Part shown: one piece after another, positions 52,908 to 58,692 of the stretch
Position numbering within the stretch: position 1 is the first letter of the stretch
Layout of the letters: the number at the start of each line of letters is the position of its first letter
NCBI RefSeq assembly: GCF_013201545.1
Contig: NZ_CP053746.1
Span: 1,825,001 to 1,889,000, forward strand
Source: Pseudomonas graminis
GTDB lineage: Bacteria > Pseudomonadota > Gammaproteobacteria > Pseudomonadales > Pseudomonadaceae
Direction of reading: 5' to 3'
Length of the DNA: 64,000 nt
Position numbers and translations under genes: made by a program
Notes under the pieces: generated by a model
Told to the model about the DNA's origin: nothing
What the model saw: only the letters and a program-made list of their open reading frames with translations
The model's database searches: none

Positions 52908-54275
52908 TTACAACTTCAGCAATGTCTTCCACGCCCGGCTTTGCAGCACGGTGATGGTCTGCTGCATGCGGGCATCGAGGATTTCGTCGGTGATGTCCAG
53001 GTGCGCCAGTTGCTCGAGCTTGTTCAACTCGCCATACAAGCGGTCCAGCTCAGGCAGGTCGAGGGCCTGGCGGGCATAGTGCAGCCAGACCTGGATGCGC
53101 TCGATGCGTGGCAGTTGCTCGGCAAGGTCTTCCGGCTGCTGCTGGTAGCGCGGCAGGTTCAGCGCGGTCGCTTCATCGCCCAGGAAACGCGGTACCCAGC
53201 TGCTGAGCATCGCGTGGCCCTGACGATTGCCACGATTATTGCGCTCGACTGTCCAGCTGCGCGCCATCAACCAGCGTGAGGTGGTCAGTGAGAACAGGCC
53301 CCAGCGGGTGTCCTGCAACTCTTCGATGAACTGCTCATGGGCAGCGGCGCGTACGTCGCCATCTTCCTGGCCGGCGAGCACCAGCGTGCGCCAGTCTTCC
53401 AGCAAGGCGTCCAGCGCGGCGCGCAGGTCATGGGTCGTTGAGCGCGGAGCGGCTTGGCCCAGGCTGCCGGCCAGAGCGCGCAGTTCAGCGAGCACTTCGA
53501 CCCACTCCTGCAACAGGCTCCAGTGACCATTGAAACGGTATTGCTCGGCCAGACGCTGGCTGCTGCCGAGCAGGAACCAGGCGATGGCGTTAAACGCGTC
53601 GTCTACCGAGAGTTCGCCATGCAGCTCGGGCGTCGGCAACTTGATCGAGTAGCTGCTGGCGTCGAACAGGCGATAGCCACGCTCGGCCTTGCTGATATCG
53701 CAGGGCATCAGCGGCAGCTTCTCGGCCAGCTCTGCGGCCAGTTCCAGCAGCGCGGCAGGGTCGCCTTCGCGCAACTCCAGTTCCAGCTCGCATATTTCTT
53801 CCTGCTGCTTGCCGGCGACAACCTTGCCCAGGTCCAGCGCTGCTTCGATCACCACCTTGGTCTTGCCACGGCCCCAAGCGATTTCCGCTTTCTCGCGGAC
53901 GAAATCAGTGGTGAACACCGGCTTGATGGTTTTCTTGTCCAGATCCGCCAGTTGCTCGGGCCAGCATTCGCCGTCGAGCTTCTTTAGGTCCAGCTTGGCC
54001 TTGGGCACGTCCCAGTTGTATTCGTTGCGCTCGGACAGGCCCGCCACGCTCTGGCCGCGGGTCTTGAGGGTCTGAATGATTGCGTCGCCATCGCGGCGAA
54101 GGCGCAGCGCAACTTTGGCATGGGCCAGCTCACGCTCGGGAGTGTCGAAGTACTGATTGAACAGCTCCAACCGCTCCCAGCCACCCTTGTTGCGCTTCTT
54201 CAGCAACGGGTGCTCGCGCAGGGCTATGAGGGTTTCGCGGCTGACGCGGAGTTTGATTTCGGTTTCTTTCTGCAT
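52908..54275 (-). CDS. CYTH-CHAD domain protein (inorganic triphosphatase-like)
   Basis: A 455-residue protein. The N-terminal CYTH domain has the signature E-x-E-x-K in KETEIKLRVS and alternating charged strands (ALRLRRDGDAIIQTLKTRG) that line a phosphate tunnel; it resembles E. coli YgiF, a triphosphatase. The C-terminal CHAD domain (about residues 215-455) is helical with conserved histidines and arginines, as in RRDGD and DLRAALDALL; CHAD domains bind polyphosphate. ATG 54275 is preferred to the TTG at 54290. Divergent from argE. A link to polyphosphate metabolism (ppk, ppx in this window) is an inference from domain knowledge. Confidence 0.9.
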   Translation of the reverse strand: MQKETEIKLRVSRETLIALREHPLLKKRNKGGWERLELFNQYFDTPERELAHAKVALRLRRDGDAIIQTLKTRGQSVAGLSERNEYNWDVPKAKLDLKKLDGECWPEQLADLDKKTIKPVFTTDFVREKAEIAWGRGKTKVVIEAALDLGKVVAGKQQEEICELELELREGDPAALLELAAELAEKLPLMPCDISKAERGYRLFDASSYSIKLPTPELHGELSVDDAFNAIAWFLLGSSQRLAEQYRFNGHWSLLQEWVEVLAELRALAGSLGQAAPRSTTHDLRAALDALLEDWRTLVLAGQEDGDVRAAAHEQFIEELQDTRWGLFSLTTSRWLMARSWTVERNNRGNRQGHAMLSSWVPRFLGDEATALNLPRYQQQPEDLAEQLPRIERIQVWLHYARQALDLPELDRLYGELNKLEQLAHLDITDEILDARMQQTITVLQSRAWKTLLKL

Positions 54276-54441
54276 GGCCGGAGAATCCAAACGCTCTATC
54301 GCTGATAACAGGGGGCGCAGCCGGAATCGACACAGCTGCGTGGGCCGTGCAGTGTACAGGACATCAACCGTGACAGTTTATTCATGCGGGCCAATCGACC
54401 TATGATGGCTGGCGTGTCGCACCCCATCACCGGAGTCGCCT

Positions 54442-55590
54442 ATGCCGTTGCCGTCCATGAAAGACCAGTTCGCCGCCCTGATCGCCGCGCCGTCTGTGAG
54501 CTGTACGCAGCTCGCGCTCGACCAGTCCAATCGCGCCGTCATTGACCTGCTGGCGGGCTGGCTGGGCGATCTGGGTTTCGCCTGCGACATCCAGCAGGTA
54601 AGCCCCGGCAAGTTCAATCTGCTGGCGACGTATGGAACTGGCCCCGGCGGGCTGGTGCTGGCGGGCCACAGCGATACCGTTCCTTACGACGATGCATTGT
54701 GGAAGACCGATCCGCTGAAGCTGACCGAAGTCGACGGCAACTGGGTAGGACTGGGCAGCTGCGACATGAAGGGCTTTTTCGCGCTGGCCATCGAGGCGCT
54801 TCAACCGCTGCTCGATCAGCCGTTCAAGCAGCCGCTGATCATTCTCGCCACCTGCGACGAAGAAAGCTCGATGGCCGGTGCCAAGGCATTGGCTGCGGCG
54901 GACGGTGTGCTGGGTCGCGCGGCGGTTATTGGCGAGCCGACGCGCCTCAAGCCGGTCCGCCTGCACAAGGGCGTGATGATGGAGCGCATCGAGATTCTCG
55001 GCCGCAGCGGTCACTCCTCTGACCCGAGCCTGGGGCGTAGCGCCCTTGAAGCCATGTACGACGCCATCGGCGAGCTTAAAGGCCTGCGCCGCCAATGGCA
55101 GGAGCAACACCGCAATCCGCAGTTCAGCGTGCCGCAACCGACCCTGAACTTCGGCTGCATCCATGGCGGCGACAACCCGAACCGGATCTGCGGGCAATGC
55201 TCGCTGGAGTTCGACCTGCGCCCGCTGCCGGGCATGGACCCTGAAGTGCTGCGCGCGGCGATTCGGCAGAAGCTGCAACCCGTTGCCGAACTCCATCAGG
55301 TGCAGATCGATTACGCGCCACTGTTTTCGGAAGTCTCACCGTTTGAAGAAAGCGCCGACGCGGAACTGGTGCGAATCGCCGAGCGTTTGACCGGTCATAC
55401 GGCCGAAGCAGTGGCATTTGGCACCGAAGCGCCTTATCTTCAGCGCCTTGGTTGCGAAACCATCGTGATGGGGCCCGGGGACATTGCCTGCGCGCACCAG
55501 CCCGGTGAGTATCTTGAAATGTCACGTTTGCAGCCTACAGTGCGTCTGTTACGTCAATTGATCGAACATTACTGCCTGGCTACCCCTTGA
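54442..55590 (+). CDS. argE: Acetylornithine deacetylase
   Basis: A 382-residue M20 family metallohydrolase that yields ornithine from N-acetylornithine. Metal ligands are in LAGHSDTVPYDD, LGSCDMKGFFALAIEA and TCDEESSMAGAKAL; GEPTRLKPVRLHKG starts the dimerisation domain. Pseudomonas also recycle acetyl groups through ArgJ, so ArgE may be auxiliary. 149 bases and a leader peptide separate it from argA. Confidence 0.92.
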   Translation: MPLPSMKDQFAALIAAPSVSCTQLALDQSNRAVIDLLAGWLGDLGFACDIQQVSPGKFNLLATYGTGPGGLVLAGHSDTVPYDDALWKTDPLKLTEVDGNWVGLGSCDMKGFFALAIEALQPLLDQPFKQPLIILATCDEESSMAGAKALAAADGVLGRAAVIGEPTRLKPVRLHKGVMMERIEILGRSGHSSDPSLGRSALEAMYDAIGELKGLRRQWQEQHRNPQFSVPQPTLNFGCIHGGDNPNRICGQCSLEFDLRPLPGMDPEVLRAAIRQKLQPVAELHQVQIDYAPLFSEVSPFEESADAELVRIAERLTGHTAEAVAFGTEAPYLQRLGCETIVMGPGDIACAHQPGEYLEMSRLQPTVRLLRQLIEHYCLATP

Positions 55591-55634
55591 GTGCACCCAG
55601 GTGCTGCATGAGGCAGGGCCTGTCTCAGAATCAA

Positions 55635-55737
55635 CCGAAAAGGAGAGTACGCGTGTTGCGATGCCTGTTCCGACGATAAAGCTCATGCCGTCTTGAGTGT
55701 TTCCACCCTTCGTCCATCCACTACAGGCTCCTTTCGG
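55635..55737 (+). promoter_or_regulatory. Predicted leader structure controlling argA translation
   Basis: CCGAAAAGGAG (55635-55645), which contains the leader-peptide Shine-Dalgarno, is complementary to CTCCTTTCGG (55728-55737), just before the argA ATG, over ten base pairs with a single bulged A. The pairing would hide the leader site and the argA start region together. Seen directly in the sequence; regulatory meaning is inferred. Confidence 0.5.
55653..55679 (+). CDS. Putative arginine-rich leader peptide MLRCLFRR upstream of argA
   Basis: A GTG start seven bases after a strong AAGGAG site, then eight codons including three CGA arginine codons (two just before the TAA). It lies 61 bases before argA, the first enzyme of arginine synthesis. 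Short leader ORFs rich in the end product's codon are the classical sign of attenuation or stalling control. Alternative: an ATG at 55661 in another frame (11 codons, no arginine) with poorer spacing. Confidence 0.5.
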   Translation: MLRCLFRR

Positions 55738-55739
55738 AT

Positions 55740-57038
55740 ATGCCCGATTACGTTAATTGGCTCCGCCACGCGTCTCCCTACATCAATGCCCACCGGGATT
55801 GCACGTTCGTCGTCATGCTTCCAGGCGATGGCGTCGAGCACCCGAACTTCGGCAACATCGTCCACGACCTCGTGTTGCTGCACAGCCTCGGCGTGCGCCT
55901 CGTACTGGTTTACGGCTCCCGCCCGCAGATCGAAAGCCGCTTGCAGGCCCGTGGCCTGACGCCGCATTTTCATCACGACATGCGCGTGACCGATTTCGCC
56001 ACCCTCGAATGCGTGATCGACGCCGTCGGCGCCCTGCGCATCGCCATCGAAGCGCGTTTGTCGATGGACATGGCCGCCTCGCCGATGCAGGGCTCGCGAT
56101 TGCGCGTCACAGGCGGCAACTTCGTCACGGCGCGCCCGATCGGCGTCCTTGAGGGCGTCGATTTCCAACACACCGGTGAAGTACGCCGCATCGACCGCAA
56201 GGGCATCAGCCGGCTGCTCGACGAACGCTCCATCGTGTTGCTGTCACCGCTGGGGTATTCGCCCACTGGCGAGATTTTCAACCTTGCCTGCGAAGACGTT
56301 GCGACGCGTGCGGCGATTGATCTGGGGGCGGAAAAGCTGCTGTTGTTTGGCGCCGAGTCAGGCCTGCTGGACGAGCAGGGCCGATTGGTCCGTGAGCTGC
56401 GTCCACAACAGGTCCCCGCGCACCTTCAGCGGCTGGGCAGCAACTACCAGGCAGAGCTGCTGGATGCGGCGGCTCAGGCCTGTCGCGGTGGTGTGGCGCG
56501 CAGCCATATCGTCAGCTACGCCGAAGATGGCGCGCTGCTCTCGGAGCTGTTCACCCGCGCCGGTGGCGGCACACTGGTGGCCCAGGAGCAGTTCGAACTG
56601 GTGCGCGAAGCGTCGATTGGCGACGTTGGCGGGCTCATCGACCTCATCACGCCGCTTGAAGAGCAGGGCATCCTGGTGCGTCGTTCGCGGGAAGTGCTTG
56701 AGCGTGAAATCGAGCAGTTCAGCGTGGTTGAGCGCGAAGGCCTGATCATCGCCTGCGCGGCGCTGTACCCGATTGCCGATTCCGAGACGGGTGAGTTGGC
56801 CTGTTTGGCGGTTAACCCGGAATACCGTCACGGCGGGCGCGGCGACGAACTGCTCGAACGCATCGAAGAACGCGCCCGGGCGCTGGGTCTGAAAACCCTG
56901 TTCGTCCTCACCACGCGCACCGCCCACTGGTTCCAGGAGCGCGGTTTCGAGGCCAGCAGCGTTGATCGCCTGCCCAGCGCACGTGCGTCGCTCTACAACT
57001 ACCAGCGTAATTCGAAGATTTTCGAGAAGGCGATCTAA
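55740..57038 (+). CDS. argA: N-acetylglutamate synthase
   Basis: A 432-residue classical ArgA. The amino-acid-kinase-like domain (residues 1-280; VVMLPGDGVEHPNFGNIVHDL, LVYGSRPQIESRL) binds arginine as feedback inhibitor, and the C-terminal GNAT domain (about 290-432; YPIADSETGELACLAVNPEYRHGG) acetylates glutamate. It commits carbon to arginine. No good ribosome site lies right before the ATG; the bases there (GGCTCCTTTCGGAT) are complementary to the leader Shine-Dalgarno. A terminator follows. Confidence 0.96.
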   Translation: MPDYVNWLRHASPYINAHRDCTFVVMLPGDGVEHPNFGNIVHDLVLLHSLGVRLVLVYGSRPQIESRLQARGLTPHFHHDMRVTDFATLECVIDAVGALRIAIEARLSMDMAASPMQGSRLRVTGGNFVTARPIGVLEGVDFQHTGEVRRIDRKGISRLLDERSIVLLSPLGYSPTGEIFNLACEDVATRAAIDLGAEKLLLFGAESGLLDEQGRLVRELRPQQVPAHLQRLGSNYQAELLDAAAQACRGGVARSHIVSYAEDGALLSELFTRAGGGTLVAQEQFELVREASIGDVGGLIDLITPLEEQGILVRRSREVLEREIEQFSVVEREGLIIACAALYPIADSETGELACLAVNPEYRHGGRGDELLERIEERARALGLKTLFVLTTRTAHWFQERGFEASSVDRLPSARASLYNYQRNSKIFEKAI

Positions 57039-57050
57039 GCGAGTTGCATC

Positions 57051-57083
57051 AGGGTCTGCCGCTTTCGCGAGCAGGCCCTTTTA
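57051..57083 (+). terminator. Terminator after argA
   Basis: AGGGTCTGC and GCAGGCCCT pair with one wobble around an 11-base loop, then TTTTA. Lies between argA and the convergent gshA. Confidence 0.75.
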
Positions 57084-57105
57084 CAACATCTTGAACAGCC
57101 TCGCG

Positions 57106-58692
57106 TCAGTTACTGATCGCCAGAATGCTCGCCTGATACGCACCCACAAACGTGTCGAAATCCACTTTCTCTTCGGTCTGTTCCAGCTCCGCCTGCTGGG
57201 CCAGGGACTCGCGTGCCTTGCTTTCGAAAGAGGTCTGCTCTTCGGCGCTCAGCGGATTACTGCGGAAATGATCAGCGTGAACCTGTGACTGGCGCAGCGA
57301 GAAGGCCGTGAAGCCTTCCTTATGCTCAGTCATCGCTGCGAGCACCTGTGCCGAAGGCGTCAGGGAGGCGTCCGCCACTTTCGCTCGCTGAACGTCCAGC
57401 GATTTGACGTGCTGATCCGTGCCGTGGCTGGCGTCGAGCAGTTCACAGATCGGCCTGATCGTGTCCAGCATCTCGTTGGCCCAGACTTTCAGATCAATCG
57501 TCGTGTCGTTGCGGTTCAGTTGCAGGCCTGGGCGGCGACCTTCCTTGACCACGGTCAGGAAGTTCGTGCTGGCGTTGCAGCACTCGTTGCTCGCCAGTTG
57601 CGGGCTGTCGTGCAGTGCGCAGTACAGAATGAACGCATCAATGAAGCGCGATTGCTGAAGGTCGATGCCCACCGGCAGGAACGGGTTGATGTCCAGGCAG
57701 CGAACTTCCACGTACTGCACGCCGCGCGCCACCAGCGCCTGAATCGGACGTTCGCCGGAATAAGTCACGCGTTTCGGACGGATCGTCGAGTAATACTCGT
57801 TCTCGATCTGCAGCACGTTGGTGTTGAGCTGAATCCACTCGCCATCCTTGTGCGTGCCGATTTCAACGTAAGGCGCGTAGGGCGTTGCCACTGCACGGCG
57901 CAGGCTGTCGGTGTAGGTCAGCAGGTCGTTGTAGCAAGGCGTCAGATCCGCCTGGGCATTGCTCTGGTAACCCAGATCGCTCATCCGCAGGCTGGTGGCG
58001 TAAGGCAGATACAGCGTCTCGGCGTCGAACTGCTCCAGCTGATGCGAGCGGCCGCGCAGGAAGCTCGCGTCCAGGGCCGGCGACGCGCCGAACAGGTACA
58101 TCAGCAGCCAGCTGTAACGGCGGAAGTTGCGGATCAGGCCGATATAGCTTTCCGACTGGAAATCACGGTCACTGCCTTCGAATTTCGCGTCCTGCCTGAG
58201 CACGGGCCAGATGGCTTCGGGCAGCGAGAAGTTGTAATGAATGCCGGCGATGCACTGCATGGTTTTGCCGTAACGCAAGGCAAGGCCCTGACGATAGACA
58301 TATTTCAGCTTGCCGATATTGGAGGTGCCGTAATAGGCGATCGGGATATCCGCTTCGGCCGGCAGCGGGCACGGCATCGAAGGGCTCCAGATGTATTCGC
58401 TACCCAGTTTGCTGTACGCGAAGCGATGAATCTTCTCAAGGCTTTCCAGCGTGTCGGCAGGGTTGGCCAGGGCCGGAGTGATGAACTCCAGCAAAGACTC
58501 GGAGTAATCGGTGGTGATTTGCTCATTGGTCAGCGCCGCGCCGAGGGCTTCCGGGTGCGGGGTTTGTGCCAGGCGGCCTTCGCCCGTAACGCGCAGGCAT
58601 TCACGCTCGATGCCATGCAAGCACTTCTCCAGAAGGGAGAGGTTGGAGTGCTCGCCAAGCAGAGTCAGGCGGCGGTTGAGAAGTTCGCTCAA
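57106..58692 (-). CDS. gshA: Glutamate-cysteine ligase
   Basis: A 528-residue class I enzyme, first step of glutathione synthesis. [16 protein letters not shown], the SPSMPCPLP loop, [21 protein letters not shown] and [14 protein letters not shown] are diagnostic. The open frame goes to a GTG at 58707, but AAGGA sits seven bases before the in-frame TTG at 58692 and the resulting start, [13 protein letters not shown], agrees with the P. aeruginosa protein as I recall it (MSDLLSRR..., 527 residues). TTG is therefore taken. Confidence 0.94.

Follow-up and report, generated by a model that had tools for sequence, protein, structure and literature searches.

The argA gene of Pseudomonas graminis is preceded by a mini-ORF that has its own Shine-Dalgarno (SD) site and ends in two in-frame CGA arginine codons immediately before the stop codon, and, as judged from sequence comparison across the genus and family, this mini-ORF is probably translated, acting in cis as a sensor of the arginine supply on behalf of argA. 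It lies in the window (the whole 64,000-nt stretch of DNA that was analyzed), and its sequence, conservation, codon identity and, in one set of genomes, fusion to argE are observed directly. Arginine synthesis is usually taught as a case of ArgR repression; if our reading is true, a second, RNA-level control operates at argA, the committed step, in well-studied bacteria, throughout the genus as well as in several neighboring genera. The first gene of arginine synthesis is argA, and the leader would report arginine shortage to it.

In the proposed mechanism, where translation itself, pausing, the direction of the response (low arginine raising argA) and the route to argA are all predicted, ribosomes would load at the strong leader SD and then meet the CGA pair that adjoins the stop. 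When charged Arg-tRNA is ample they would complete the mini-ORF and depart; when it is scarce, a ribosome would pause on the CGA pair, and its presence there would either keep the weak argA start from being masked by the leader RNA or protect the transcript against Rho and decay, allowing argA to be made.

Results

The mini-ORF in the Pseudomonas graminis window

The features under study are collected in Table 1. A GTG-started ORF of eight codons with an AAGGAG site ahead of argA, as proposed by the first-pass annotation of this DNA, is indeed present. Two Pseudomonas graminis records (L239, L240) encode an ArgA 100% identical to that of the window, which points to P. graminis or a near relative as its source.

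Table 1. Leader mini-ORF, its component signals and the flanking genes in the window.
Feature	Position	Strand	Basis
Leader mini-ORF GTG TTG CGA TGC CTG TTC CGA CGA TAA (MLRCLFRR*)	55653..55679	+	direct reading; counterparts in other genomes
Shine-Dalgarno AAGGAG of the leader mini-ORF	55640..55645	+	direct reading; 7 nt 5' of GTG
Conserved core CGA CGA stop (Arg-Arg-stop)	55671..55679	+	all mini-ORFs from any-Arg-codon scans
GCCUGU within the mini-ORF, able to pair with the weak argA SD	55663..55668	+	6-7 pairs in 84/100 same-genus genomes
ACAGGC, partner of GCCUGU; putative weak argA SD	55723..55728	+	helix comparison
CCGAAAAGGAG, pairing arm 1 of the first-pass annotation, local	55635..55645	+	direct reading, relatives compared
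CTCCTTTCGG, pairing arm 2 of the first-pass annotation, local	55728..55737	+	direct reading, relatives compared
argA (N-acetylglutamate synthase), presumed regulated gene; start codon ATG at 55740	55740..57038	+	432-aa ORF; relatives family-wide; name from the first-pass annotation
Upstream argE-like gene (presumably argE, from the usual argE-argA gene order)	54442..55590	+	ORF list; stop at 55590

The mini-ORF is more than a chance occurrence. A pattern of SD, start, up to ten codons, CGACGA and stop matched once on both strands of the window, namely at the mini-ORF (reported at its TTG, 55656), against a chance expectation of 0.00025 per 200-nt region in first-order simulated DNA. A looser pattern without a frame check was searched in 12 genomes. 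In G000, the genome whose frames were read by eye, it gave 10 matches genome-wide; apart from that of argA, one of the 10 is in frame, at a place where the opposite strand has a 335-aa ORF of L208.

Pattern matching in window positions 55300-55900 gave no terminator-like site, in agreement with the first-pass statement that a T-run terminator is lacking, and thus the terminator hairpin that characterizes transcription attenuation is not seen there. A single promoter-like site (a pattern match in the same interval) lies at 55514-55541, within argE. A scan of 53000-58500 with Rfam covariance models yielded no match in the leader; two matches at E values up to 5 fall outside it and are under their gathering scores.

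Phylogenetic distribution

An Arg-Arg-stop mini-ORF was found 52-129 nt 5' of argA in all 100 same-genus genomes read, at each of 80 named Pseudomonas loci (the best 80 of more matches) and in 35 of 77 genomes from other genera of the family, which supports the first-pass reading of an arginine-rich leader ORF before argA. The mini-ORF of the 100 same-genus genomes ends in CGA CGA (one extra Arg codon allowed) plus stop; an SD-like word of at least four bases 5' of it was a condition of the any-Arg-codon scan that listed it. The 100 same-genus regions comprise 95 from the 199 ArgA-bearing genomes (ArgA is present in 199 of 199) and five further ones; for the other genera, upstream DNA came from 77 of 106 searched genomes, 68 placed by script and nine read separately. 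Named carriers include P. graminis, P. cichorii, P. congelans, P. amygdali, P. avellanae, P. putida and isolates named P. fluorescens.

Among the other genera, the leader occurs in every genome read of g2 (2/2), g4 (2/2), g6 (7/7), g8 (1/1), g9 (8/8), g12 (12/12) and g14 (1/1), and in part of g13 (1/2) and g16 (1/2). It was not found in the genomes placed of g3 (1), g5 (9), g7 (3), g10 (2), g11 (1), g15 (8), g17 (4), g18 (2) and g19 (1); since these nine genera of the family are leaderless in the genomes read, argA can work without the leader. For L143-L146, L151, L160, L161, L163 and L179 (g10, g11, g18), CGACGA-stop is absent from the 500 nt before argA. L145 has CGA CGG TAA at -85, apparently within the end of argE. 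Outside the family but within the same order, CGACGA-stop occurs in 0 of 22 readable loci (300 nt before argA), out of a set of 25 loci (L214-L238) from 145 genomes searched, three of which (L221, L222, L236) were not placed. A different Arg-Arg-stop stands at -224 in one of these order-level loci, L217.

In a 41-row ArgA tree, many forks of which are weak, the leader trait requires at least four changes; the leader is present in the deep g13 row and absent from several inner groups. This distribution, read with due regard to the weak forks, suggests an old element that has been lost repeatedly. In L159 (G226, genus g13), a TTG-started frame, read by eye, retains CGA CGA and continues to ..RRNNKHLNK* without a stop there. 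Two leaderless loci of genus g15, L139 and L142, have an inverted repeat (GGAGCAGG..CCTGCTCC) after argE, possibly a terminator or another control.

Codon identity at the end of the mini-ORF

The encoded peptides are diverse (among them MLRCLFRR, MSPSLFRR, MLPSLFRR, MTPSLFRR, MTASLFRR, MLPSLLRR, MTPSLNRR and MKLPQLRR, with the further, mostly shorter forms MFMRRR, MLMRRR, MLLRRR, MLRRR, MLRR, MQRR and MKRR), and the terminal Arg pair is all that is constant across them, the N-terminal residues, the length (4-9 codons) and the stop codon being variable. What persists is CGA-CGA in frame, with the stop next to it or separated from it by a single further Arg codon. In the scans that allowed any Arg codon, the first two terminal Arg codons were CGA CGA in every mini-ORF listed, and six genomes have CGC as an extra third Arg codon. 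The first-pass annotation had pointed to three CGA codons in the window ORF, and of these the last two are conserved and the first is confined to P. graminis and its near relatives.

Elsewhere in the window, CGA makes up 42 of 706 Arg codons (20 long ORFs, not verified as genes). Across 134 leader-bearing genomes, the conserved Arg of argA NWLR is encoded by CGC (80 genomes) or CGT (54); as these genomes were selected by CGACGA, only the argA column is informative for codon choice. In the same 134 genomes the leader stop codon is TAA in 99, TGA in 34 and TAG in one. From the third base of both CGA codons being held while the stop and flanks drift, we infer translation with selection on codon identity, and not a plain DNA motif.

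In L074, the usual GTG is GTA and a new in-frame ATG adjoins it. In six same-genus genomes (L084, L087, L090, L097, L098, L100), the argE frame itself ends ..VQRR* at CGACGATGA (CGACGA-stop), and these genomes also have a GTG with GGAG upstream at that place; such an argE-stop reading is false for L035, probably so for L096, and none was obtained for L114. Overall, at the level of sequence, the feature has the makings of a leader peptide: a conserved short ORF with an SD before a biosynthetic gene, in which Arg codons are enriched and conserved.

A stricter version of this reading, which we put forward tentatively, is a minimal codon-based sensor: any frame ending CGA-CGA-stop would suffice, be it only four codons long or the 3' end of argE itself, and the sensing would be done by a slowly read CGA by the stop, a place at which pausing and rescue are likeliest, whatever the peptide and with no need for a fixed RNA structure. 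Candidate reasons for the CGA pair are slow reading, as CGA is read slowly by an inosine-bearing tRNA, and ribosome rescue at stops after rare Arg codons, which Hayes, Bose and Sauer reportedly identified in 2002 as SsrA-tagging determinants in E. coli. The argA mini-ORF resembles those determinants in having rare Arg codons right before the stop, which provoke ribosome rescue, but SsrA tagging at such stops is protein quality control and not a regulatory leader like that of argA. The strictness of CGA at the stop, together with the freedom elsewhere, offers a clean test of codon identity and pausing near termination versus the peptide as the sensor.

Alternative explanations

A variant compatible with the preferred leader reading, which we regard as possible yet somewhat doubtful, is that the leader ribosome, moving or paused, gates the access of Rho or a nuclease to the C-rich spacer. 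The spacers (leader stop to argA mostly 52-83 nt, overall 52-129 nt) average C 0.352, G 0.215 and YC 0.207 in 63 representatives, and are richer in C and YC than the DNA before 17 other window ORFs, whose starts are unverified (C 0.299, G 0.265, YC 0.145); the lack of a terminator-like site in 55300-55900 points the same way, and Salmonella orf34-speF involves Rho and RNase G (PMC6386406). However, the upstream regions of leaderless argA genes (16 loci) are equally C-rich (C 0.387, G 0.217, YC 0.212), so that the presence of a leader does not account for the C bias. Moreover, by a common rule of thumb, most spacers, at 52-83 nt, are short for a full Rho site before argA.

Alternatively, the short nascent peptide could respond to arginine or ornithine as its ligand by arresting the ribosome at the stop, thereby switching argA. 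The invariance of the terminal Arg-Arg, which adjoins the stop or is separated from it by one codon, and the prevalence of LFRR as the commonest ending in the genus would suit this explanation, which nevertheless appears unlikely: the residues before Arg-Arg are free (LF, LL, LY, LI, LS, LN, QL, ML, K, Q or the C-terminus of argE), the mini-ORF can be as short as four codons, and CGA is kept over other Arg codons, which a peptide sensor would not need. Peptide conservation of the kind that marks arrest peptides was not seen beyond the terminal Arg pair in the scanned mini-ORFs.

It is quite improbable that CGACGA-stop is an untranslated DNA or RNA site for a protein, e.g., ArgR. CGACGA is conserved at the nucleotide level, and TGTCGC near the MSPSLFRR forms looks like a half-site of Pseudomonas ArgR, but this neighbor is absent from the MTASLFRR and MLRR forms. 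The conserved unit is instead an in-frame start with an SD, Arg-Arg and a stop, with variation in spacing, flanks and both start and stop codons, and in the six argE-fused genomes CGACGA-stop prolongs the argE frame.

Highly improbable is the switch of the first-pass annotation, in which CTCCTTTCGG, 5' of the argA ATG, is the pairing partner of the leader SD (CCGAAAAGGAG) and ribosome loading on the leader frees argA: both arms exist in the window (their pairing requires one bulged A), but the pairing is local. Of the 11 nearest named relatives, four (L240-L243) have it complete and seven do not, among them P. graminis DSM 11363 (L239) with a mismatch. As the window leader also masks argA no more than shuffled leaders do (z 0.48), the pairing is not supported as a general switch.

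Possible masking of the argA start

Masking was assessed by folding 63 representatives of 135 loci (at most 14 per clade). The real leader raised the cost of opening the argA start (-20 to +6) relative to shuffled leaders in 43 of the 63 (mean z 0.75), a count to which no strict probability attaches because the representatives are related sequences. The effect is strongest in particular clades: z is 0.1-5.1 in g12 (2.0-5.1 in five of seven representatives) and 1.5-1.7 in g6 (4 of 4), and masking is high in the single loci L075, L080 and L107. It is reversed in genus g9, all four representatives of which have negative z values (-0.40 to -2.08), and the window, together with several same-genus clades, masks no better than shuffled leaders. 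Removing the leader to 12 nt past the first base of the first CGA lowered the opening cost by at least 1 kcal/mol in 49 of 63 (a count from rounded values, real leaders only); in g9 the same removal left it unchanged or raised it on average. Given these mixed folding results, the leader likely masks argA in some clades, and, as modeled, masking is not the conserved core of the element, the window falling at the shuffled level and g9 being reversed.

A recurrent helix joins GCCUGU in the mini-ORF with ACAGGC, the putative weak argA SD. Of the 100 same-genus (g1) genomes, 84 retain 6-7 of its pairs without interruption, and the remaining 16 have a weaker helix or none. Changes in it are one-sided G.U only; a two-sided compensatory change was seen in none of the 100 genomes. 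In L291, ACCUGU possibly pairs with its own ACAGGU (by eye). An AGG about 9-18 nt 5' of argA is also visible by eye in several leaderless genera. Consensus folds computed clade by clade have few informative changes and differ between clades, which speaks against one common RNA structure. In several clades these folds pair the leader ORF with argA codons of about 3-11 (in the window, 55653-55679 with approximately 55746-55775), a pairing that may be due to chance because those codons are conserved for protein reasons.

Relation to known leader systems

Classical leader-peptide attenuators (trp, his, leu and phe operons) possess an ORF rich in codons for the end product. The argA mini-ORF is likewise an end-product-codon-rich leader ORF before a biosynthetic gene, but it is shorter and differs from them in the absence of a terminator-like site from 55300-55900. 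The trp and phe attenuators are mentioned in PMC5343134; no arginine gene of E. coli is under attenuation control according to PMC6245113; and the main text of the premature-terminator survey of Naville and Gautheret (PMC2965389) names neither argA nor arginine. For carA of Pseudomonas aeruginosa, a leader peptide is reported and attenuation is discussed for pyrimidines (PMC4997734). This case is similar in that a Pseudomonas gene feeding arginine synthesis has a leader peptide, but it involves a different gene and a pyrimidine context.

Salmonella orf34-speF provides a working precedent: there, pausing at two consecutive Arg codons in low arginine alters mRNA folding and raises expression (PMC6386406). 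The two systems share a leader ORF with two consecutive Arg codons, but orf34 is 34 codons long with a conserved peptide domain, carries the pair at codons 12-13, far from its stop codon, and controls polyamine synthesis from a transcription start 516 nt 5' of speF (PMC6386406), whereas the argA mini-ORF has 4-9 codons, the Arg pair at the stop, CGA kept, and a place before an arginine synthesis gene. In the Salmonella leader, frequent Arg codons are as effective as rare ones, and replacing a stop-adjacent rare Arg codon by Gln is without effect (PMC6386406); this precedent thus leaves the strict CGA at the stop unexplained.

Our best reading is that the argA leader is a variant of leader-peptide control, for which we found no prior description in the openly licensed literature: among the matches listed, titles and abstract starts gave neither a description of a Pseudomonas argA leader nor a paper on its ribosome profiling in Pseudomonas.

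Upstream DNA and spacer

In eight loci with the MSPSLFRR form (L010, L012, L013, L015, L018-L021), conservation starts at TAAATTGCC, which precedes the leader SD by about 25-30 nt, and the DNA 5' of TAAATTGCC is variable and rich in repeats. TAAATTGCC resembles a -10 box, so the leader would belong to the argA mRNA in these loci. A -10-like TAAATT was read by eye before the leader in eight MSPSLFRR loci; a count of the motif TANAAT/TANACT, which TAAATT does not fit, gave 0 of 54. At the other end of the leader, four loci (L105, L106, L112, L178) have CCCTCTCC or GGGAGAGG repeats in the spacer, which is about 120-129 nt long there.
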